From Candidatus Omnitrophota bacterium (GTDB taxonomy: Bacteria; Omnitrophota; Gorgyraeia; VGKH01), in NCBI GenBank assembly GCA_016867135.1, contig VGKH01000007.1, positions 1 to 42,198 on the forward strand: 42,198 nucleotides of DNA, read 5' to 3'. The stretch's first letter is position 1. Every line of letters begins with the position of its first letter. Made by a program: the position numbers and the translations under genes. Shown here piece after piece: positions 4,881 to 13,971 of this stretch. The notes below the pieces were generated by a model that saw only the letters and a program-made list of their open reading frames with translations, did not search any database and was not told the origin of the DNA.

Positions 4881-6635
4881 ATGAATACGCGTGATTTAAC
4901 ACAACAAGATGCTATTGCCCTCCTTCTTAAAGACGGCCTGTCAAAAGGTTTACACCCGGAATTCCAAATCATCAGCTCCAGCATGCATCCCGTTCTGCAA
5001 CCCGGTGACAGGATTTTTGTCAAAGAATACTCCGTAAACAGCTTATCTTGCGGCGATATCGTAGTCTACAAAATAAAAGATCATATTATTGCCCATAGAT
5101 TCCTCTATATAAAAGATAATAGCCATTTTATAACTCAAGGCGATAATACTAAGCAAATCGATGCCCCGATTAATAACGACGCGCTGCTGGGTAAAATAGT
5201 CATGATTGACAAGAATGGAAACAAAATCGATCTAGAAACAAAAAAGTGGAAAACAACAAATAATATCCTCGGAAAAATCCTGCTATCAAAACTTCATATT
5301 AAGGATAAAAATTCTTCTATAAAGATTCCCTCTCCTATCGTTTGCAAATTCTTAAAAATCTACGCCCTTATTATAAATTCCGAATACCGGAATATATTGG
5401 AATTCAGGAAAAGCTCGCTTCTTTTGGAAAAAGAGCTGCTTAAAATCTGCGCTAAAAAGGAATTACGCAATGAAGATATAAAATTCATAGAAGAAGCAAC
5501 CGAGAAAGACATCGACTGGGATAAATTCGCCTGGCTTGCGGAATATAATTCGGTTGCTCCAATCGTTTTTATTAACTTATCAAAAATCAAACAAGATTAT
5601 ACCCCAGAGGAGATAATTCAAAGGCTAAAAAACACCTATACCGAAAGCTTCCTTAAAACCGCCCCGATTTATGATGACTTATCTAAATTACTCAAAGAAT
5701 TAAATTCCCTTGCAGTAAAAATAATTGTCTTAAAAGGCTGCTCTTTGGCCGAACAGCTTTATGGAGATTTCTCCCTGCGACCGATGAAAGACATTGATAT
5801 CTTAGTCAAAAAACAGGATTGGCCTAAAATTAAAAAAGTGTTAGATAAACTGGGCTTCAAAGCCGAGAAGGACTTGCTTGAGCTAGAGAATACTCTTGGA
5901 TCCCCCGCCGACTGGCATCTTTGTTACAGGAACGCGCGCGATACAAAAATTGAATTCAAATTCAATCTTTTCATACTAGACTTTCCGGAATTTGATTCAT
6001 CAGATTACTGGCAAGAGGCGATATCTATTAAAATAAACAATATTGAAACTCTTGGTTTATCAGTTGAGGATCAAATCATATATTTATCCAGCCGTATGAT
6101 TAATGTGGGTTTTAGAAACCTGCTCTGGTTCTGTGATCTGAGGGAACTGATCAATACCTATAGCAAGGATATCGACTGGGGGAAAATAATCGTAAAAGCC
6201 AAAAAGAAGAAAATAACAGTTGCTTTATATAATAGCTTGCTTATATTAAACAAAGAATTAAGCGCCGGTTTGCCAAAAGAAGTCTTAGATGAGCTTAAGC
6301 CTTCCTTTGTTAAAGAAAAAATTTTTAGCGCTTTCTATAGCCTCAAATATCCCTTGTTTTTACTGCCGGAAAATATATTTAATCCAAACCCGATAATCAG
6401 CCTATGCCTTGTTTTCGGCAAATTTTCCCTATGGCCAAAAGATATGGTTAAATTGATACGCTACGCAAAAAAGATTTTCTTCCCTCCTCTAGACTATATA
6501 GCCTATCGCTATAATCTGCCTAAAAAGCGCGGCGCTATCTTATATTGGTATCTTCATAGATTAAAGGAATTTATGATTAGATTCTTACTTTTGGGAAGGA
6601 TTTTTAATAAAAAGCCAAAGTACCTTTTGTCTTAG
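4881..6635 (+). CDS. Fusion of S26-type signal peptidase domain and NTP_transf_5 nucleotidyltransferase
   Basis: This 584-residue protein joins two parts. Residues 25-120 resemble the S26/S24 peptidase fold: SSSMHPVLQPGD gives the Ser-Met pair (Ser34), and IIAHRF (His72) fits a Ser-His dyad of the SipW/archaeal kind; QGDNT follows. Residues about 160-560 resemble uncharacterised nucleotidyltransferases (NTP_transf_5): IIVLKGCSLAEQLYG, then RPMKDIDILV with the D-x-D metal site. Both families are recurrent neighbours of PqqD and HPr-kinase-like genes in lasso-type peptide loci (family knowledge). I infer leader cleavage or nucleotidyl tailoring of the peptides encoded at 9297-10334. It is the only plus-strand gene of the locus; its last 32 bases overlap the exporter permease gene end to end. 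Function is unproven. Confidence 0.8.
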   Translation: MNTRDLTQQDAIALLLKDGLSKGLHPEFQIISSSMHPVLQPGDRIFVKEYSVNSLSCGDIVVYKIKDHIIAHRFLYIKDNSHFITQGDNTKQIDAPINNDALLGKIVMIDKNGNKIDLETKKWKTTNNILGKILLSKLHIKDKNSSIKIPSPIVCKFLKIYALIINSEYRNILEFRKSSLLLEKELLKICAKKELRNEDIKFIEEATEKDIDWDKFAWLAEYNSVAPIVFINLSKIKQDYTPEEIIQRLKNTYTESFLKTAPIYDDLSKLLKELNSLAVKIIVLKGCSLAEQLYGDFSLRPMKDIDILVKKQDWPKIKKVLDKLGFKAEKDLLELENTLGSPADWHLCYRNARDTKIEFKFNLFILDFPEFDSSDYWQEAISIKINNIETLGLSVEDQIIYLSSRMINVGFRNLLWFCDLRELINTYSKDIDWGKIIVKAKKKKITVALYNSLLILNKELSAGLPKEVLDELKPSFVKEKIFSAFYSLKYPLFLLPENIFNPNPIISLCLVFGKFSLWPKDMVKLIRYAKKIFFPPLDYIAYRYNLPKKRGAILYWYLHRLKEFMIRFLLLGRIFNKKPKYLLS

Positions 6636-7440
6636 CCCGCCTTAAAGCCCAGCGAAATATAATCATGCTAATCGGCAGCAAAACCAGGCAGAAACCCAAA
6701 AGCACAATTATATCGCCTGATAGCATATCCCAAGAATAACCTTTAAGCAGGGCGAAACGCAAGGCTCTAAGCGCATAGGTAATCGGGATGGAATAAGAAA
6801 TTACCTGAAGATATTCTGGTAAGACGCTGACAGGAAATAAAACTCCGCCGAAAAATGTAACCAGGCCCGACATAAGCCAAAGCACTGGATCTCCGCGCTT
6901 AAAAACCATGGTAAAGGAGGCGGAGATTATTCCGAAACAAGAAAAAGATATTATGGTGAGTAACAAAACTATTAGCGCGGCAGATAAGTTAGCTCCCCCA
7001 AAGTTAATTCCTAGAAAAGTTACTCCGACAAAAACATATAAAAATACATTCACCGAAGCTAAAATGAAATCATACAATGACAAAGAGATGAGAATTGCGG
7101 GAAGTTGCGTCGGGGTAGTAAGCATAACCTCTAAAGTGCCCCAGATTTGCTCTTTGGTAATTTTGGAAGAAAAAATAGTAAGGCTTGTGCCGATATAGTT
7201 TCTGGCGGCAATACCAACCAATACAAAAGGAAAATAATCTCCTCCGTATTCCGCTAAATATCCCGATGCCTGTTTTCCAACAATCTTGGAAAGATAATAA
7301 AATGTGAATATGGATACAAAAACTCCCACCCATTGAGTCAAAAAATCAATTTTATAACTTATATTACCCAAGAAATCTTTTCTTATGAATGCCTTGGCCT
7401 TATTTAAAAATAAATAAACTGACGTAAAAAATCCTCTCAT
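6604..7440 (-). CDS. ABC-2 type exporter permease
   Basis: The 278-residue protein has six hydrophobic segments and the layout of ABC-2 permeases: cytoplasmic N-terminus, first helix near 35-55 (WVGVFVSIFTFYYLSKIVG), an amphipathic stretch TKEQIWGTLEVMLTTPTQLPAILIS typical of the family, and the late loop FGGVLFPVSVLPEYLQVISYSIPITYALRALR. It starts 2 bases after the ATPase gene, so the two form an export complex, probably as a dimer of each. Position at the end of the RiPP operon suggests export of the mature peptide. Its 3' end overlaps the convergent S26-NTase gene by 32 bases (6604-6635), which could allow antisense interference. Confidence 0.88.
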   Translation of the reverse strand: MRGFFTSVYLFLNKAKAFIRKDFLGNISYKIDFLTQWVGVFVSIFTFYYLSKIVGKQASGYLAEYGGDYFPFVLVGIAARNYIGTSLTIFSSKITKEQIWGTLEVMLTTPTQLPAILISLSLYDFILASVNVFLYVFVGVTFLGINFGGANLSAALIVLLLTIISFSCFGIISASFTMVFKRGDPVLWLMSGLVTFFGGVLFPVSVLPEYLQVISYSIPITYALRALRFALLKGYSWDMLSGDIIVLLGFCLVLLPISMIIFRWALRRAKTKGTLAFY

Positions 7441-7442
7441 AA

Positions 7443-8240
7443 TTATTCTTTTATGTAGTAATCAAAAACCTCGTCTATGCCTGCATTGGGCATTGACATC
7501 TTTTGTCTTAATTCATCAAAGGGGCCGCTTGCCTTAAGCCTGCCTTTAGCCATTATTGCGATAGTATCGGCTAAGTTCTGGATTTCATTTAATGAGTGGC
7601 TCGTGAAGATCACCGTCTTTTTCTTCTGCTCAACGAGTTTTTTGCGGATAAAATCTCTCAGAGTCTTTGCGCTTGAAGGATCTAAGCTTTTAGTAGGCTC
7701 ATCAACCAATAAAATCGGCGCATCATTCAAAAGGCCTCTAGCTAAAGCGAATCTCTGTTTTATGCCGGAGGAATATTCCTGATACATGATATCAAGCTTA
7801 TCTTTTATCGCTAAAAGTTCGGACAGCTCTTCTATTTTCTTATCCGCGCTGCTTGAAAACAAGCCGTACAAACTAGCAAAGAAACGAAGGTTTTCCCTCC
7901 CGCTAAGCCGCACGTAGAAACTTCTGGTTTCGCTTGTAACCAACCCGATGCAAGCCCTTACTTTGTCATCTTGCCCTGATACATCAAATCCGTTTACCAT
8001 CACCTTCCCGCTATCGGGCAAGATAATGGTTGACAATATTTTCAGCAAAGTGGTTTTCCCGGCGCCATTGGGGCCGACTAAACCAAAAAGCTCCCCCTCT
8101 CTTACCCTTAAGTCAACTTCGTTACAGGCAACTATAAAATCACCGCGCTTGCCAAAGAAATTAAAGGCATCTTTAAAAGACGGGGATTTGGTAGGCGAGA
8201 ATTTCTTATAAAGCTTAATTGTTTCTATGGCGTATTGCAT
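7443..8240 (-). CDS. ABC exporter ATP-binding subunit
   Basis: This 265-residue ATPase has Walker A GPNGAGKTT (about residues 55-63), a Q-loop region (IGLVTSETRSFYVRLSGREN), a degenerate signature YSSGIKQR in place of LSGGQ, Walker B ILLVDEPTKSLD and the H-loop TSHSLNE. It belongs to the drug/polysaccharide exporter group that pairs with ABC-2 permeases, which is the next gene. It follows the HPr-kinase-like gene by 7 bases. The N-terminal stretch (TKSPSFKDAFNFFGKRGDF) is longer than in minimal ATPases, as in CcmA/NodI-like proteins that act on large or bulky cargo. Peptide export is inferred from context. Confidence 0.93.
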   Translation of the reverse strand: MQYAIETIKLYKKFSPTKSPSFKDAFNFFGKRGDFIVACNEVDLRVREGELFGLVGPNGAGKTTLLKILSTIILPDSGKVMVNGFDVSGQDDKVRACIGLVTSETRSFYVRLSGRENLRFFASLYGLFSSSADKKIEELSELLAIKDKLDIMYQEYSSGIKQRFALARGLLNDAPILLVDEPTKSLDPSSAKTLRDFIRKKLVEQKKKTVIFTSHSLNEIQNLADTIAIMAKGRLKASGPFDELRQKMSMPNAGIDEVFDYYIKE

Positions 8241-8247
8241 ATAAAGG

Positions 8248-9231
8248 CTATAAGAGCTTGCCCATAAGCTCTGGTATTATATCAATATCTTGATCTTTAT
8301 AAATTAGCTTATAAGTTTTTGTTTTATTGACCAAATTAGATAATGCCTGAAAGTGCAATCTAGAGACATCTTCGTATTTGCCTTGAAATACCCGGAACTT
8401 ATCCTCAATAAGACGTCTTAAGACATACCGTTTATCCACCGGATAAATACCCGTTTTTAGATGCGCGCTAAAACAGGGAAATATTATTACTTTTGGGATG
8501 GCTTTTTCCTGGAAAGAATTGGGATAAAGCTTTTTTAAATCCACCCTTTGTTTTTTGTCTTGCCTGATAGGCTTTAAATACTTCTTTTTCATCTCCGGAA
8601 AGAAGCGTACAAGCCCATCTTTAATCTTGAGGCTGCAATAAAAAGCGAAACACTCAACGATGCCACCTTTTTGCCTCAAGAACGTATCATCATCCGTAAG
8701 ATATTTATATCCTTTTCTCACTAAACTAAGGCTGACAATGCTTTTTCCGCTTCCCGGAACGCCCGGCAACAATATCGCCGACTGGCCTTTTGCTAAACAG
8801 GCGGCATGCAAAACGTATATTTTATGAAATCTTAAAAGAAATCTTAGCGGCTGGAAGAATACCAGATCGAAAAACAAATTTCTATCGATAAAATCTTGTC
8901 CGCGGGCAATACATACGTGGACATAATCTTTTTTGGGATCGATATTGACTTGCAAACTCCTGAAACCAACGTCAATAATAATCTTGCTATCAGCGATATG
9001 CTCATCTTGAAACAAAGGCTCTTCTTTAAAAACATCCCGTTTTGTCCTGGGGATTTTGTAAAAGTCTGTTCTTTCTAAATTAAATAAGATCTCAAAATCC
9101 GGTTTTTTAATTTGTTTTGGATTTGGAGTGTCAAGTTGCTCTTTTATCAAATGAAAGATTTTGCGGTCATTTGTAATGACTTTTAATCTAAAATTATTGA
9201 TTGAAAGTGAAGTGGTTAACCTATCTGACAT
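8248..9231 (-). CDS. HPr-kinase-like (HprK-related) P-loop protein of a RiPP locus
   Basis: The 327-residue protein has an alpha/beta N-terminal half and a C-terminal P-loop domain. GVPGSGKS (residues 157-164) follows the strand SAILLP, and LTDDDTFL (about 178-185) supplies acidic residues placed as in HPr kinase. HVLHAA-type text (IYVLHAACLAKG) precedes the P-loop, as in HprK-related proteins found beside PqqD genes. In the lasso peptide paeninodin a homologous kinase phosphorylates a serine of the precursor (established for that system). Here the precursors hold serines just before or within the variable tails, so phosphorylation is possible but inferred. No clear Shine-Dalgarno precedes ATG 9231. 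Confidence 0.78.
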   Translation of the reverse strand: MSDRLTTSLSINNFRLKVITNDRKIFHLIKEQLDTPNPKQIKKPDFEILFNLERTDFYKIPRTKRDVFKEEPLFQDEHIADSKIIIDVGFRSLQVNIDPKKDYVHVCIARGQDFIDRNLFFDLVFFQPLRFLLRFHKIYVLHAACLAKGQSAILLPGVPGSGKSIVSLSLVRKGYKYLTDDDTFLRQKGGIVECFAFYCSLKIKDGLVRFFPEMKKKYLKPIRQDKKQRVDLKKLYPNSFQEKAIPKVIIFPCFSAHLKTGIYPVDKRYVLRRLIEDKFRVFQGKYEDVSRLHFQALSNLVNKTKTYKLIYKDQDIDIIPELMGKLL

Positions 9232-9296
9232 TATTATTAGGTAAGCAAAAAAGAAACGATACTTTTAGAAACAATGTATTAAAAGCGGTTTAATTT

Positions 9297-9383
9297 TTAC
9301 AATTCATACCCGCTGGGAGGCAATGCCGCTGATATTGTCGCCTGGATCCTTTTTATCTTGGAATACCTAAGAGATCTTCTCAA
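9297..9383 (-). CDS. Short precursor-like ORF 5b, TTG start overlapping the stop of precursor 5
   Basis: A 28-codon frame starts at TTG 9383 and overlaps the TGA of precursor 5 as TTGA, with GAGGG 10 bases upstream inside precursor 5. The product opens MRRSLRYSKIKRIQA and ends TISAALPPSGYEL. It keeps the basic YSKIKRIQA block of the family but lacks Y-x2-P-x-L. It could be translated by coupling, or be the 3' half of a decayed precursor. The upstream 98 bases are an exact copy of those before ORF 4b, while the tails differ. Confidence 0.45.
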   Translation of the reverse strand: MRRSLRYSKIKRIQATISAALPPSGYEL

Positions 9384-9442
9384 TGCCCAATTCCCTCAAC
9401 AAATTCTCCTTCTGCAACACTAGCCGCCTGAATTCTCTTTAT
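9345..9442. repeat. 98-bp exact direct repeat, copy 1
   Basis: Identical to 9696-9793, 351 bases away. It covers the 3' end of precursor 5 and the first part of ORF 5b. The identity stops abruptly on both sides, which indicates recent segmental duplication or gene conversion within the precursor array. Confidence 0.93.
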
Positions 9443-9532
9443 TCTTAAGAATTTGATCAGTCGGGGCCTCTTATATAATCTTTTCTGAACCTGTTTAAAG
9501 TAATCTTTTTTAGTATATCTTCTCACAGTCAT
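9380..9532 (-). CDS. Candidate RiPP precursor 5 (50 aa)
   Basis: An intact 50-residue frame from ATG 9532 to TGA. The leader is basic (MTVRRYTKKDYFKQ), then LYKRPRLIKFLRIKRIQ carries Y20-x2-P23-x-L25, the spacing of the leader motif recognised by PqqD-like domains in lasso systems. The C-terminal part is AASVAEGEFVEGIGH, shared with precursor 4 and nearly with precursor 1. GTAAGTT before the ATG is shared with precursor 3. No cysteine is present, so a thioether product of the sactipeptide type is unlikely. The peptide is too short for usual gene callers. Confidence 0.7.
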   Translation of the reverse strand: MTVRRYTKKDYFKQVQKRLYKRPRLIKFLRIKRIQAASVAEGEFVEGIGH

Positions 9533-9553
9533 AACTTACTAAAAGCGGTACTT

Positions 9554-9625
9554 TTATATAACATTTGTAGGAGGAGTAATCACAGACGCCGATTGAATCC
9601 TTTTTATCTTGGAGTTTCTTTGCAT
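9554..9625 (-). CDS. Short precursor-like ORF 4c (23 aa)
   Basis: ATG 9625 follows AGGA by 9 bases. The 23-residue product starts MQRNSKIKRIQSAS and ends VITPPTNVI. It keeps the SKIKRIQ block but not Y-x2-P-x-L. The ending PP-x-NVI matches the tail of the broken unit at 10040-10172 (PPQNVI), and the bases after it resemble the bases between units 2 and 3, so units 4c-5 and 2-3 look like duplicated pairs. It may be a relic or a leaderless variant. Confidence 0.45.
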   Translation of the reverse strand: MQRNSKIKRIQSASVITPPTNVI

Positions 9626-9653
9626 ATCATTAATCCTGCTAAATGATTAATCT

Positions 9654-9734
9654 TTATCCGCCAATCTCAAAAGGACCCGCCGCAGAATCTCCATAGATCC
9701 TTTTTATCTTGGAATACCTAAGAGATCTTCTCAA
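9654..9734 (-). CDS. Short precursor-like ORF 4b, TTG start overlapping the stop of precursor 4
   Basis: A 26-codon frame starts at TTG 9734 and overlaps the TGA of precursor 4 (TTGA), exactly as ORF 5b does. The product starts MRRSLRYSKIKRIY and ends GDSAAGPFEIGG. The tail is unlike any other in the array. Translation would depend on coupling from precursor 4. Confidence 0.45.
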   Translation of the reverse strand: MRRSLRYSKIKRIYGDSAAGPFEIGG

Positions 9735-9793
9735 TGCCCAATTCCCTCAACAAATTCTCCTTCTGCAACACTAGCCGCCTGAATTCTCTTTAT
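9696..9793. repeat. 98-bp exact direct repeat, copy 2
   Basis: Identical to 9345-9442. It spans the 3' end of precursor 4 and the start of ORF 4b. Confidence 0.93.
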
Positions 9794-9868
9794 CTTGGAA
9801 TACTTAATGAGTTTTGGTTTGCTGTAGATTCTGGTTTTATGTTTTTTACAATTACATTTCTGATACAT
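9731..9868 (-). CDS. Candidate RiPP precursor 4 (45 aa)
   Basis: Intact frame from ATG 9868 to TGA 9731. Product begins MYQKCNCKKHKTRI, continues YSKPKLIKYSKIKRIQ with Y15-x2-P18-x-L20, and ends AASVAEGEFVEGIGH. Its leader cysteines (Cys5, Cys7) lie before the recognition motif, so they are unlikely to be in the product. No strong ribosome site is seen before ATG 9868 (AATATT ATG), yet the frame is fully conserved against precursors 1 and 5. It is the best template for judging the broken units. Confidence 0.72.
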   Translation of the reverse strand: MYQKCNCKKHKTRIYSKPKLIKYSKIKRIQAASVAEGEFVEGIGH

Positions 9869-9883
9869 AATATTTTAAAATAC

Positions 9884-10017
9884 CTAGATATATTCTCCGG
9901 TTAGGCCCGCCGTCGATATCGCCGCCTGGATTCTCTTTACCTTGGAATATCTAATCAGCTTGGGCTTGGCGTAATGCCTGTTTTTATGTTTAGCGGCGGT
10001 TTTTTACCACATTCCAT
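9884..10017 (-). pseudogene. Precursor unit 3, frame broken at an A6 run
   Basis: ATG 10017 has AGGAG 10 bases upstream. In its own frame it ends early as a 20-residue peptide. The family text (HYAKPKLIRYSKVKRIQ, then AAISTAGLTGEYI) continues in the -1 frame to TAG 9884. One extra A in the six-A run at 10000-10005 would restore a 44-residue precursor whose middle (KKTAAKHKNRHYAKPKL) aligns with precursor 4. No in-frame ATG, GTG or TTG lies between the upstream stop and the motif. It is either a real pseudogene, an assembly error in the homopolymer, or uses frameshifting or transcript slippage. Confidence 0.6.
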
Positions 10018-10039
10018 AACTTACAGACTCCTAACTAGA

Positions 10040-10172
10040 CTATATAACATTTTGAGGCGGAGCACTAGATGCCGCACTTATTCTTTTAATCTTGGAATAT
10101 TTAATCAAAGCTGGCTTGCTATAATGCCTCAACAATTTTTATCGCTATTATTTCTTTCGTGTATTTACCCAT
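10040..10172 (-). pseudogene. Precursor unit 2, frame broken at an A5 run or starting at TTG
   Basis: From ATG 10172 the frame (MGKYTKEIIAIKIVEAL) stops before the motif. Dropping one A from the five-A run at 10136-10140 gives a 43-residue precursor with HYSKPALIKYSKIKRIS and tail AASSAPPQNVI, ending at TAG 10040. Alternatively a TTG at 10135 opens a 31-residue product that still contains Y-x2-P-x-L, but no ribosome site precedes it. The shift needed here has the opposite sign to unit 3. Confidence 0.55.
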
Positions 10173-10190
10173 GTGTTTGTTTTAAAAACC

Positions 10191-10334
10191 TTATAGATGT
10201 CCGCCGATTCCCTGAACAAATTCGCCTTCTGCAACACTAGCCGCCTGAATTCTCTTTATCTTGGCATACTTAACGAGCCTTGGCTTTTTATAAGATTTGG
10301 TTTTAGTTACATCTTTTCTATCATATTTGTACAT
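10191..10334 (-). CDS. Candidate RiPP precursor 1 (47 aa), coupled to the radical SAM gene
   Basis: The ATG at 10334 lies one base after the radical SAM stop codon (TGATATG) and AAGGAG sits 4-5 bases upstream, overlapping the end of that gene, so translation is coupled. The 47-residue product begins MYKYDRKDVTKTKS, has YKKPRLVKYAKIKRIQ with Y15-x2-P18-x-L20, and ends AASVAEGEFVQGIGGHL. Compared with precursors 4 and 5 the tail has Gln for Glu and two extra residues. This is the best supported precursor: good ribosome site, intact frame, and immediate linkage to a modifying enzyme. Confidence 0.78.
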   Translation of the reverse strand: MYKYDRKDVTKTKSYKKPRLVKYAKIKRIQAASVAEGEFVQGIGGHL

Positions 10335-10335
10335 A

Positions 10336-11349
10336 TCACTCCTTATTTTTATGAAATATCTGATTTATTCTGCAAATCTCTAGCGGTTTAGCAGTAATAC
10401 TGCCTTGCTCAAGATAAGCTATATCGCGGTTCCTGCAGCATTTATTATAATACTTACAAGAAAAACATTCAAATGATTTCTCATTTAGGTTCCTTATGTA
10501 ATTAAATACCTTTGACCTATGCCAAATATGGGAAAAAGTGCTTTTTCTTAAGTCTCCTGCTTCCATGCGGTTGATTACGGATGGAAAGACTTTCCCGGAT
10601 GAACCTATTTCCAGCCCTAAGTGACCACGGAACCTATCTTCGGCTCTAAATCTTTTTTTGCTCGCTTTTTTATTTGACCATATCAAAAGTTTTGATTTAG
10701 CCGCTGATTTTATTTGTTCATCGCTTGCCCTTAAAATTACAGGGTCTTTGGAGCTCCAAATCGCGGGAAATATAACAAAATCAAAACCTATATCCCATTT
10801 CTCCTTTTTAGCCATTTTTCTAAGCTCTTTTAATTCTTCAAAATTCTTGTTAAACGACATCGTGGCAATTTTAAAAGAAACTTTATGTTTTTTTAGAAGC
10901 CTTATAGTATTCATTGTCTTGTCAAAAGAACCTTTGACCAAAGTTATTGAATCGTGCATAGCGGCCGTAGCGCCATAAAGACTAAGCTGTATATTCATAA
11001 TTCCTAGCTTCTTTAACGTTTTGGCGTCTCCTTCATCAAGAAGGGTACCATTTGAAAGAATAAGCACGGCAAATTGCATTTTAGTAGCAAGTTCCAGTAT
11101 TTTAAAGAAATCTTTTCTCAAAAACGGCTCTCCGCCGGAAAACCTCTGAACCATACAATTCTCTGCCTTAAGTTGATAAAGTATGTCTTTTATTTCCTCA
11201 AATGTCAATTCGCCATTCAAATGCTCATTTTTAATACAGCAGTGGATACAATCCAGGTTGCATCTTGTCGTCAGTTCCCACTGAGCTAAAAAAGGAACAG
11301 TACTCTGTTTTAATTTATAAAATAATTTGTCGAAGCTTTTTAATTCCAT
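10336..11349 (-). CDS. Radical SAM/SPASM peptide-modifying enzyme
   Basis: The 337-residue protein has the radical SAM cluster motif C30-x3-C34-x2-C37 in ELTTRCNLDCIHCC and the SAM-binding FSGGEPFLRKD near residue 70. A C-terminal cysteine set (Cys295, Cys298, Cys304, Cys305, Cys326) fits a short SPASM or Twitch domain for one or two extra Fe-S clusters. SPASM enzymes modify ribosomal peptides (PqqE, AlbA, mycofactocin MftC). The precursors start one base downstream and two PqqD domains lie upstream, so peptide modification is the clear reading. The chemistry cannot be read from sequence; lack of core cysteines argues against thioether formation. Confidence 0.92.
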   Translation of the reverse strand: MELKSFDKLFYKLKQSTVPFLAQWELTTRCNLDCIHCCIKNEHLNGELTFEEIKDILYQLKAENCMVQRFSGGEPFLRKDFFKILELATKMQFAVLILSNGTLLDEGDAKTLKKLGIMNIQLSLYGATAAMHDSITLVKGSFDKTMNTIRLLKKHKVSFKIATMSFNKNFEELKELRKMAKKEKWDIGFDFVIFPAIWSSKDPVILRASDEQIKSAAKSKLLIWSNKKASKKRFRAEDRFRGHLGLEIGSSGKVFPSVINRMEAGDLRKSTFSHIWHRSKVFNYIRNLNEKSFECFSCKYYNKCCRNRDIAYLEQGSITAKPLEICRINQIFHKNKE

Positions 11350-11359
11350 ATATTAAGCC

Positions 11360-12601
11360 CTACGCTGCTATTAAGATATTCTCCTGCCGCAGCTGATTAA
11401 TAAAATCTATTACATCTTCCCTTATTGCCTCTGGCCCGGATTCATATTCCTCAGATATCCCGTTTATGGCGTCACTTAAATTCTGTCCATCGATTAAACG
11501 CTGCCATATTTCAGCCGCGGTCTCGTTAAGCCTATAGAACAAGTCATCTTTTAAGTTAAAAATCCTTAAGGAATCATTGTTTAAAAACCAAACTACCCCG
11601 GAATTTAACTTTAAATCAAAGCCGTTATATTTTATATAAATTTCTTTGGGCGCAACACGCCTTATATCAAGGCGGTTTGATAATTTTATCGGTTTTAAGG
11701 ACATACAAATTTGACCAAAAACAAAAAATAACTGTACAATATTCTCGATAAATAAATGCGCTTTTTCTTTTCCTTTATTTATTTGAAGTATCCGAAATGC
11801 GTTTATCGTCAGCCTCCATAGCGCCCTAATTCTTGTTAAAAAATATTTAGTTTTTGATACGTCGGGACCTAAAATATACCTATATTTTCTAAAAACTAAA
11901 TGGGAGGCGCATCCGTATTCAAACTGATGCAGGAAAAAATTCTTAAAATCTCTTATATGAAGGTGATAAACTAAAGATTCTGGGATATACTTCATCTGAT
12001 AGCCACCAAAGGACAATCTCCAGCCTAATTCAGTATCTTCAGAAGTTATTAAATCTTCATCGAAGAGGCCTATTTCTTCTAAGACGTCTTTTCGAAAGAT
12101 GGCATTTGCTGTTACAACTCGAGGTATCTCCTGGTTGACATCCGAATCCATTGCCAATTTTTGGCTAAGCATATCTCTTTCTTCCGCAAATCTTTCGAAA
12201 ATGTTATCTGTTTTGTGGGCGACGATCTTCCCCCCGCAAGCAGCAATATTATCATCGCTTTCTACAGCTTCAAATAATATCTTAAGCCAATTTTTATCAA
12301 CAATGCAATCCGAATCAGTAAAGGCAATGTATTTACCTTTCGCAACGCTTATTCCCTTATTCCTGGCAGCGCCCCTGGTTCTTTTTGATTCAAATACATA
12401 TTTGACGGGATAGGGCGAAACTATCTCTTTTGTTTCGTCCGTGGAGTTATTGTCTACGACTATTATCTCTCTTTCTTCAGCTGGAAAATCAAGATTGAAT
12501 AGCGAATCAAGACAAAAAGCGATTTTTTGAGCGGCATTATAGGCGGGAACAATAATAGAAACTTTTAGATTCTGAATATCGTTAAGACTTTCTTGAACCA
12601 T
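11360..12601 (-). CDS. Family 2 glycosyltransferase fused to a PqqD-like recognition domain
   Basis: Residues 12-260 form a GT-A glycosyltransferase: VSIIVPAYNAAQKI, IIVVDNNSTDET, the acceptor-base region TRGAARNKG, and the metal site FTDSDC. EDTELGWRLSFGG is the family's later motif. After a linker, residues about 325-413 resemble PqqD: SGVVWFLNNDSLRIFNLKDDLFYRLNETAAEIWQRLIDG, then a helical tail. PqqD folds bind leader peptides. A tethered PqqD domain suggests that the transferase glycosylates the precursor encoded nearby, but the domain could also be a cluster mark of another substrate. It sits 10 bases upstream of the radical SAM gene and 7 bases downstream of the free pqqD gene. Confidence 0.87.
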   Translation of the reverse strand: MVQESLNDIQNLKVSIIVPAYNAAQKIAFCLDSLFNLDFPAEEREIIVVDNNSTDETKEIVSPYPVKYVFESKRTRGAARNKGISVAKGKYIAFTDSDCIVDKNWLKILFEAVESDDNIAACGGKIVAHKTDNIFERFAEERDMLSQKLAMDSDVNQEIPRVVTANAIFRKDVLEEIGLFDEDLITSEDTELGWRLSFGGYQMKYIPESLVYHLHIRDFKNFFLHQFEYGCASHLVFRKYRYILGPDVSKTKYFLTRIRALWRLTINAFRILQINKGKEKAHLFIENIVQLFFVFGQICMSLKPIKLSNRLDIRRVAPKEIYIKYNGFDLKLNSGVVWFLNNDSLRIFNLKDDLFYRLNETAAEIWQRLIDGQNLSDAINGISEEYESGPEAIREDVIDFINQLRQENILIAA

Positions 12602-12608
12602 TCCTATC

Positions 12609-12875
12609 CTATTTAACTAATAAAAGTTTTTCTTTTTTTAAATCGCTTATTAGCGAATCCAAGTCTTTTTTCGCTCTCTGTTCAGAAATATTGTAATCCT
12701 GGCTTATTCTTTGGGTTATCTGAGCGGCATCTTTATGCATATTAAGCATTTGCCAAATAAGCGTTCCAATTTCATTGAGGGTATAATAAAAACCATTATC
12801 TAAATTAAGTATAACCGCTTCGCCATCAATGTTTCTCCAGACAACCCTATCAGAATTAACGGAATATTTTTTCAT
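12609..12875 (-). CDS. Stand-alone PqqD-family leader-binding protein
   Basis: The 88-residue protein fits the PqqD fold: VVWRNIDGEAVILNLDNGFYYTLNEIGTLIWQMLN, then helices with ITQRISQDYNISEQRAKKDLDSLISDLKKEKLL. Size is normal. PqqD proteins bind the leader of a precursor and deliver it to a radical SAM or other enzyme. GAAGG lies 9 bases before the ATG. It is first in the tightly packed run pqqD, GT-PqqD, radical SAM, precursors. The 85-base gap before it shows no convincing promoter, so it may be cotranscribed with the sulfur genes. Confidence 0.9.
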   Translation of the reverse strand: MKKYSVNSDRVVWRNIDGEAVILNLDNGFYYTLNEIGTLIWQMLNMHKDAAQITQRISQDYNISEQRAKKDLDSLISDLKKEKLLLVK

Positions 12876-13164: not shown

Positions 13165-13971
13165 TTAATGCAAAACCTCGTTTAAACTCCCCGTTCTGTA
13201 ACCCTGTAAATCTATACAAACGTAATTATACCCCAATTTCTTCATTTTGTTAATAATAATTTTTCGATGGCGAATCGCCCTGGAAATATCCTCGCTGGCC
13301 ACCTCAATCCTTGCCAGATTATCATAATGCCTGACTCTTGCTTGCTTAATCCCGAGTTTCTTAATTGCCTGTTCTCCCTTTTTAATCTTTGATAAGTTAT
13401 TTTCGTTGATTTTCTCTTTGTAGGGGATTCTACTTGCCAAACACGCGAATGCCGGCTTATCCCAAGTGGAAAGCCGAAAACTCTTAGATAATTCCCTGAT
13501 ATCTTGCTTGGTTAACCTAGCCTCTTTCAAAGGAGACCTGATTTTGAATTCTCTGAGGGCCAACGACCCCGGTCGGTAATCTTTATTGTCATCAAGATTG
13601 GAACCATCGGCAATATAATTTAAGTTGTTTTTCCTGGCAATTTTAGTTAATTCTTTAAAAAGCTCTTTTTTACAAAGATAACAGCGGTTAACGGGATTTC
13701 TCGCAAAGGCTATGTTTTGAAGCTCATTAGTACTAATAATCATATGCTTTGCGCCTATTTTCTTTGCTATGCTCTTTGCCTCTTTGATTTCATCTTCGGG
13801 ATAAAGAGGAGATTTTGCAGTGACGGCCAAGACATTCTTAACTAAAACATCTTTTGATATCTTTAAAAGAAGACTGCTATCTGCTCCTCCGGAATAGGCA
13901 ATAAGGATACTTTGCATTTTAGAAAGTATGGCGCGTAACCGAAGAAGTTTTTTCTGAAGTTTTTTTCTCAT
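13165..13971 (-). CDS. larE: LarE-like ATP-dependent sulfur transferase
   Basis: LarE proteins adenylate a carboxylate and transfer sulfur; the known role is synthesis of the nickel-pincer cofactor of lactate racemase. The 268-residue length is normal. Motifs: PP-loop AYSGGADSS (residues 25-33), NRCYLCKKELF (Cys97, Cys100), ADGSNLDDNKDYRPG, and PAFACLASRIPY with the sulfur-carrying Cys177. LarB, LarC and LarA are not in the window. The neighbours are homocysteine genes and an Nfu-like protein, so this copy may handle sulfur in that pathway, or thio-modify the nearby peptides. Both are inference. Confidence 0.87.
   Translation of the reverse strand: MRKKLQKKLLRLRAILSKMQSILIAYSGGADSSLLLKISKDVLVKNVLAVTAKSPLYPEDEIKEAKSIAKKIGAKHMIISTNELQNIAFARNPVNRCYLCKKELFKELTKIARKNNLNYIADGSNLDDNKDYRPGSLALREFKIRSPLKEARLTKQDIRELSKSFRLSTWDKPAFACLASRIPYKEKINENNLSKIKKGEQAIKKLGIKQARVRHYDNLARIEVASEDISRAIRHRKIIINKMKKLGYNYVCIDLQGYRTGSLNEVLH

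Follow-up and report, generated by a model that had tools for sequence, protein, structure and literature searches.

A probable RiPP biosynthetic cluster in Omnitrophota that joins lasso-type components to a radical SAM enzyme

Results

A lasso-type gene set with a radical SAM enzyme

Positions 4881-12875 of the window (the whole 42,198-nucleotide stretch of Candidatus Omnitrophota DNA analysed here) probably hold a RiPP biosynthetic cluster in which a lasso-type gene set is combined with a radical SAM enzyme replacing the cyclase, and which would operate by the full pathway proposed below. The locus is in effect a lasso cluster in which a radical SAM enzyme stands in for the cyclase. Four features support the RiPP reading of the original prediction: the RRE, the leader motif, synteny, and the position of the precursors, which lie next to the radical SAM gene in most of the homologous loci examined. 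ORF inspection and profile searches found the seven accessory genes and the peptide array where they had been predicted, and the encoded proteins gave the following profile matches.

4881..6635, plus strand: S26 peptidase domain fused to NTP_transf_5 (TIGR02228 9e-16, above cut-off; PF14907 1.1e-50)
6604..7440, minus strand: ABC-2 permease, DrrB-like (PF01061 3e-14; syntenic)
7443..8240, minus strand: ABC exporter ATPase, DrrA-like (PF00005 7.9e-28; syntenic)
8248..9231, minus strand: HprK-like peptide kinase of the lasso-kinase type (TIGR04352 7e-21, below cut-off)
Between the HprK and radical SAM genes: array of eight units, each with the motif ...KIKRI-xxx
10336..11349, minus strand: radical SAM enzyme with a half-emptied SPASM domain (PF04055 1.1e-22)
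11360..12601, minus strand: GT2 (GT-A) glycosyltransferase with a C-terminal RRE (PF00535 2.9e-35; PF05402 2e-14)
12609..12875, minus strand: discrete PqqD-type RRE, lasso B1-like (PF05402 1.7e-17)

Gaps of 2-16 bases had been noted, which is only roughly right, since the gaps outside the array measure 1, 2, 7, 7 and 10 bases, and the permease gene and the S26-NTase gene, which converge, share 32 bases. Promoter and terminator scans of the locus did no better than on shuffled sequence.

Related loci and the extent of the family

Relatives were sought at class and phylum level because searches of the family and order covered only two genomes. A contig scan with a single generic radical SAM pattern missed the nearest relatives and was used for outgroups. 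The window's own genome (G000) is about 92% complete. The comparison of synteny proposed with the prediction found the gene order kept in a genome of the same genus (G001), with full synteny including the flanks and five intact precursors that share a leader and differ in their cores. A genome from another family (G032, contamination listed at 8%) has the same gene set. The radical SAM enzymes of these two are 69% (G001) and 53% (G032) identical to that of the window.

Among 22 homologous loci, PqqD is present in 22 and HprK in 21. The family consists of a lasso-type RRE, an HprK-like kinase, a radical SAM enzyme and a YxKP precursor, usually with a nucleotidyltransferase and an ABC exporter, and apparently represents a RiPP family not previously characterised, which this analysis covered in Omnitrophota. 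The broader family, many of whose members have B2 or S26, an NTase and an ABC exporter, occurs throughout the class and is also seen in other phyla. The window locus is the derived end of this broader family, with clear ties to lasso clusters. The claim that no described RiPP class has exactly these parts stands for the exact set, although the locus is not an isolated one. Literature on the expression of Omnitrophota biosynthetic gene clusters was found in general terms only.

A precursor array with a lasso-type leader

The array had been counted as one precursor set. Precursors are indeed present, but the ORF is intact in only three of the eight units; in the remaining five it is either cut short or not in frame.

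10191..10334, minus strand: precursor 1, intact, with a good Shine-Dalgarno sequence (AAGGAG), core QAASVAEGEFVQGIGGHL
10040..10135, minus strand: unit 2, degenerate, TTG the only start, core SAASSAPPQNVI
9884..10003, minus strand: unit 3, degenerate, core QAAISTAGLTGEYI
9731..9868, minus strand: precursor 4, intact, core QAASVAEGEFVEGIGH
9654..9734, minus strand: unit 5, leader truncated and without YxKP, core YGDSAAGPFEIGG
9554..9625, minus strand: unit 6, leader truncated (MQRNSKIKRI), core QSASVITPPTNVI
9380..9532, minus strand: precursor 7, intact, core QAASVAEGEFVEGIGH
9297..9383, minus strand: unit 8, leader truncated, core QATISAALPPSGYEL

The upstream leader ATG of unit 2 (about 10172) is out of frame owing to a frameshift at an A run, and unit 3 has a leader frameshift at an A6 run and no in-frame start. 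Possible TTG starts of units 5 and 8 overlap the stops of units 4 and 7, respectively. With five of eight units degenerate, the array may be decaying. A dying cluster, with an inactive radical SAM enzyme lacking AuxI and a field of pseudogenes for an array, would account for the broken units, but we regard it as highly improbable: the AuxI-less enzymes persist in four genomes with their RS and AuxII cysteines, the intact precursors of G001 number five, and those of G032 are preceded by strong Shine-Dalgarno sites. Within the window, the cores of the three intact units are also nearly identical, and copies 1 and 4 differ mostly synonymously.

Leaders are basic and end in YxKPxLxK[YF]xKxKRI, and the Y, P and L of YxxPxL are invariant in 15 of 15 aligned precursors from four genomes. 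The array is not a chance set of ORFs, given this invariance and the conserved gene order and five intact precursors of the same-genus genome. Within G001 the leaders are 73% identical and the cores 15% (five intact precursors), the pattern expected of a RiPP, whose short precursor keeps its leader and varies its core.

YxxP is a known lasso RRE motif, as described in PMC12710340 and PMC10368454, and a YxxPxL leader together with a discrete RRE, as in lasso clusters (PMC10368454), is found in the window. The best NCBIfam model for the PqqD protein is lasso_PqqD_Bac (59 bits, below the cut-off of 80), and the best solved structure is the lasso RRE TbiB1 (5v1u, 1.9e-9). Both RRE family and motif match lasso examples, and from this sequence likeness the RREs are predicted to dock the leader.

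Joint loss of AuxI and of core cysteines

The radical SAM enzyme reaches the SPASM model at only 0.0019, below the cut-off. It retains the CxxxCxxC of the RS cluster; a census of ligands shows that the AuxII cysteines are kept and those of AuxI lost, leaving the enzyme with ligands for only one of the two auxiliary clusters of a SPASM protein. In the radical SAM tree the AuxI ligands were lost once, in a single clade (support 100). Loss of AuxI coincides with Cys-free cores: Cys is absent from all window and G001 cores, and the cores of the window clade are essentially Cys-free. This association represents a single evolutionary event. Related loci in Omnitrophota that share this RRE and kinase combine Cys-rich cores with full SPASM enzymes, and the window clade is derived, having lost AuxI and nearly all core cysteines and gained glycosyltransferase-RRE fusions.

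Those related loci would favor a thioether-forming (sactipeptide or ranthipeptide) cluster, as would the AF2 model of the enzyme (pLDDT 85), for which SkfB and CteB are among the closest folds in the PDB, alongside anSME, SuiB and PqqE. With neither core cysteines in the window and G001 nor AuxI ligands, a thioether product is nonetheless extremely unlikely. Streptosactin (StsA/B/C) shares with the window a radical SAM/SPASM enzyme and a separate PqqD-type RRE, which in streptosactin binds a W/YxxP leader, as described in PMC12710340. The window differs in its Cys-free cores, its loss of AuxI, and its additional kinase, NTase, S26 domain and glycosyltransferase, and its radical SAM enzyme scores only 81 bits against the StsB model (cut-off 625).

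The best NCBIfam radical SAM match of the enzyme is the heme b synthase AhbD (156 bits, cut-off 500, chiefly over the radical SAM core), a function we rejected because of the RRE and precursor context. PADLOC pVip matches are generic to the fold.

Kinase, S26-nucleotidyltransferase and exporter

The HprK-like kinase has a P-loop and the His-Lys-Asp-Asp catalytic motif of lasso-tailoring kinases (PMC9266682); H142, K163 and D180 are invariant across six loci, and the second Asp is Asp or Glu. Lasso kinases phosphorylate and the nucleotidyltransferase PsmN hexosylates Ser, as reported (PMC9266682). The conserved C-terminal Ser of lasso-kinase substrates is missing from the window clade, in which no precursor ends in Ser; any action of the kinase on the core would be at a site other than the C-terminal Ser. 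There are exceptions both to hydroxyl tailoring and to Cys loss: one G032 core, AFCP, has Cys and lacks Ser/Thr, and Ser/Thr is also missing from the G338 core KRLVI.

In the S26 domain, S34, H72 and D88/D94 are invariant and align to the SEC11 active-site region, giving a Ser-His-Asp triad of the SEC11/archaeal type. S26 and NTase are encoded by separate genes in relatives; from its sequence, the window fusion is a candidate leader peptidase and tailoring enzyme, and its Ser-His-Asp domain likely substitutes for the absent lasso B2 protease. Among the 22 loci, S26 occurs in 12 and B2 in 4, never together, a weak exclusion (about p = 0.03, a hypergeometric estimate uncorrected for phylogeny). 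A peptidase domain was looked for in the ABC ATPase and not found.

The lasso clusters of paeninodin, pseudomycoidin and bsf have the same discrete PqqD-type RRE, YxxPxL leader motif, HprK-like kinase H/K/D residues, NTP_transf_5 gene and ABC exporter, and some window relatives still keep the lasso B2. On these grounds the window might hold a lasso peptide cluster, with the genes for the cyclase and the B2 protease in another part of the genome. This is nearly refuted, and we give it hardly any probability. PF13471 (B2) has no match in the window's genome, as had been predicted, or in G001 or G032; the predicted absence of a cyclase holds for the locus, by inspection of its genes, and the cyclase's place is taken by the radical SAM enzyme in related loci. 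Several cores lack Asp/Glu altogether, hence also at positions 7-9, and lack a Gly1 acceptor, and window cores cannot form the Gly1-Asp/Glu ring. The S26 domain and the GT-RRE fusion further set the window apart from lasso clusters.

A glycosyltransferase with its own RRE

The AF2 model of the glycosyltransferase (pLDDT 76) has a GT-A domain and helices followed by strands and three helices as in an RRE, and the protein carries the motifs TDSD and SEDTELGW. At least five GT-RRE genes occur in G032, and several of them adjoin a short YxxPxL precursor with a strong Shine-Dalgarno site. PF00535 fused to an RRE is among the domain architectures listed in a structure-based RRE mining study (PMC12710340); the entries for these GT2s there give no precursor or pathway, whereas here GT-RRE genes adjoin YxxPxL precursors.

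The peptides could instead be primers or anchors of a surface glycan, with a sugar chain assembled on them by the GT-RRE and the nucleotidyltransferase and the conjugate shipped by the ABC-2 exporter, the radical SAM enzyme being minor. The GT-RRE paralogues of G032, its UDP-galactopyranose mutase and GT1/GT2 genes, the very short cores (3-6 residues) of some of its precursors and an exporter without peptidase are consistent with this. We consider it unlikely, since the window has one glycosyltransferase and no polysaccharide polymerase and the strong core variation suggests that the peptide sequence matters.

Mycofactocin (MftB/C/F) likewise combines an RRE, a radical SAM enzyme and a GT2, and below the cut-offs the window glycosyltransferase matches MftF (148 bits) and the radical SAM enzyme MftC (119 bits). 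An oligoglycosylated electron carrier, made as a redox cofactor in the manner of mycofactocin or PQQ, would need an invariant core, but the cores differ strongly within one genome. They share no C-terminal Val-Tyr (VY in 1 of 16 precursors) and no Glu-x3-Tyr, dehydrogenase partners are absent and MftD/E were not seen at the window locus, and the window glycosyltransferase has a C-terminal RRE. This reading is very improbable; PQQ membership was rejected on the tested features.

The SynChlorMet cassette (ScmC/D/E, NCBIfam) also brings together an HprK-like protein, PqqD and a radical SAM enzyme. Omnitrophota kinases match ScmC at 3e-8 and 1.5e-7, the window PqqD matches ScmD and its radical SAM enzyme ScmE. 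All these matches are far below the curated cut-offs and place the window outside the cassette; a search of the available literature for it found no paper.

Discussion

We propose the following pathway, each chemical step of which we infer. The basic leader would dock on both the discrete PqqD and the glycosyltransferase's own RRE. The radical SAM enzyme, with RS cluster and AuxII only, would then carry out Cys-independent, non-thioether C-H chemistry (epimerisation, dehydrogenation, or a C-C/C-O link) on a short core of small residues. A Ser/Thr of the core, close to its start or at another position, would receive a phosphate from the HprK-like kinase, a sugar through the GT2-RRE and the nucleotidyltransferase, or both. 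The soluble S26 domain would cut off the leader in place of the lasso B2, and the ABC-2 exporter would secrete the product. We suggest, tentatively and as somewhat less than an even chance, that this is a new RiPP class, defined by a lasso-type chassis, an AuxII-only radical SAM enzyme (the reverse of a Twitch domain), S26 cleavage, and phospho- or glycopeptides made with a leader-docking glycosyltransferase.

The family ties lasso-peptide machinery to radical SAM chemistry, is widespread in a poorly known phylum, and has key enzymes that reach no named RiPP model's cut-off; the locus supplies precursors of known sequence for testing. An S26 enzyme would be a type of leader peptidase that the protease review PMC10885120 does not mention. 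RRE-fused glycosyltransferases adjoining precursors would mean a leader-directed system of peptide glycosylation. That AuxI and the core cysteines were lost together is a direct handle on the debated role of AuxI in thioether-forming SPASM enzymes and, if the locus is indeed a new class, would be a natural experiment on AuxI function.

Gene content of the locus

All seven genes and the peptide array that the original prediction had placed at 4881-12875 were found there. The minus-strand order starts with a discrete PqqD and a GT2 glycosyltransferase-PqqD fusion, followed by a radical SAM enzyme whose SPASM match is weak; beyond the peptide array come the genes for an HprK-like protein, then the ABC ATPase and last the ABC-2 permease. 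The fused S26-nucleotidyltransferase gene is convergent with the permease gene and overlaps it by 32 bases. Intergenic gaps, the array excepted, are 1-10 bases. PqqD domains in this genome are confined to the locus, and a profile search found no peptidase domain in the ABC genes.

By anatomy the locus is a radical SAM RiPP cluster. For each of the lasso, sactipeptide/ranthipeptide and mycofactocin systems, defining features were tested and found lacking, and none of the curated models scoring above cut-off assigns the radical SAM enzyme, the kinase or the glycosyltransferase-RRE to a RiPP system. Published work already lists RRE-GT2 fusions, giving no pathway for them in the portion consulted (PMC12710340).

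Precursor peptides

The array consists of eight units with a common boundary sequence, ...KIKRI-xxx. Intact precursor ORFs occur in 3/8 units and their cores are nearly alike, QAASVAEGEFV[QE]GIG, with mostly synonymous differences between copies 1 and 4. The leaders of units 2 and 3 are out of frame with the closest upstream ATG and adjoin short A runs; either decay or slippage may explain the broken frames. Units 5, 6 and 8 are without the YxKP part, and units 5 and 8 have a possible TTG start overlapping the preceding stop. A 164-base duplication (9345-9508 and 9696-9859, 80% identity) takes in a truncated unit together with part of the precursor before it, suggesting a route of array growth in which leaders are retained and trailing cores diverge.

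The original prediction depended on homologous loci carrying precursor ORFs, and YxxPxL precursors are indeed conserved, 15 of them in four genomes, with Y, P and L invariant in all. The same-genus genome G001 has a gene order identical to the window from the BirA gene through the LarE-like gene, in a locus broken by a contig end within the glycosyltransferase gene. Its five intact precursors have YxKPxLLKFSKVKRI-like leaders and differing cores (73% identity among leaders versus 15% among cores); conserved leaders with divergent cores are what marks a RiPP precursor family. G032 belongs to a different bacterial family; its radical SAM enzyme shows 53% identity, and it also has the kinase, ABC and S26-nucleotidyltransferase genes, several PqqDs and at least five glycosyltransferase-PqqD genes, most near a YxxPxL precursor.

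The cluster surroundings include (LarE-like and BirA labels by sequence reading, no profile):

13165-13971, LarE-like (PP-loop) gene at the PqqD end, in three genomes (also G001, L137 975-1781; G032, L136 6312-7115)
12961-13161, between the PqqD and LarE-like genes, a small hydrophobic protein kept in G001 (L137 768-965)
3736-4692, BirA gene at the opposite end (also relatives' contigs L005 900-1856 and, in G032, L028 18646-19602)

A conserved insertion site would account for the LarE-like and BirA flanks, as would a functional link. The system is expanded over ~30 kb in G032 (L136 7525-19381, L028 1-17425), with repeated PqqDs and glycosyltransferase-PqqDs, two additional radical SAM types (UPF0004-type and B12-binding), an aldo-keto reductase-SPASM fusion and a UDP-galactopyranose mutase.

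Distribution of the family

Radical SAM matches (E <= 1e-40) were found in 24/384 genomes sampled in the class. The contig of G210 is identical to that of the named Omnitrophota genome UBA10183, an identity that assigns the window to this phylum. Of 22 loci read closely, all have PqqD, 21 the HprK-like protein, 16 a nucleotidyltransferase, 12 S26 and four the lasso-type leader protease B2; S26 and B2 never co-occur in these loci. The G144 order is PqqD, B2, HprK, radical SAM, precursor, nucleotidyltransferase, ABC: this locus is a lasso cluster with the cyclase replaced by a radical SAM enzyme. Precursors identified in such loci have a [YW]xKP-type leader and a Cys-rich core. Similar gene sets occur in Elusimicrobia, Kiritimatiellia, Nitrospiraceae and others.

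Loss of AuxI and of core cysteines

In four radical SAM enzymes (window, G001, G032, G338) the RS cysteines and AuxII ligands persist but the ligands of auxiliary cluster AuxI are gone; AuxI is kept in every other Omnitrophota example examined. The four form one clade (SH-aLRT 100), and a separate AuxI loss occurred independently in Bacillus-type TIGR04053 proteins (L114, L116, L117, L121, L125). In G338 another SPASM radical SAM protein is encoded between PqqD and the precursor (L029 2867-3871), next to the AuxI-less one. Cores in these four genomes are Cys-free, with one exception (AFCP in G032). Wherever a precursor was identified at an AuxI-bearing locus, its core has two or more Cys. AuxI is the cluster closest to the active site, and in CteB a peptide Cys ligates it (PMC6231123). 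Since the association reflects a single evolutionary event, the joint loss is only suggestive of a switch away from thioether chemistry.

Proposed pathway

The nearest match to the window RRE is lasso TbiB1, and the precursor leaders carry the known lasso motif (PMC10368454, PMC12710340). The HprK-like kinase retains the His, Lys and Asp that are catalytic in lasso kinases, and the pseudomycoidin nucleotidyltransferase is reported to add hexoses to phospho-Ser (PMC9266682). The glycosyltransferase is modelled as a GT-A domain with a C-terminal RRE-like fold, and the window copy has the usual acidic motifs. Ser/Thr occurs in 14/16 precursor cores, mostly at core position 4 or 5, and the S26 domain retains Ser, His and Asp. 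From the RRE and leader motif, the kinase, glycosyltransferase and S26 residues, the core Ser/Thr and the peptidase-free ABC genes, we propose a scheme in which leader docking would be followed by radical chemistry independent of Cys, Ser/Thr would be phosphorylated or glycosylated, S26 would trim the peptide, and export would be the final step.
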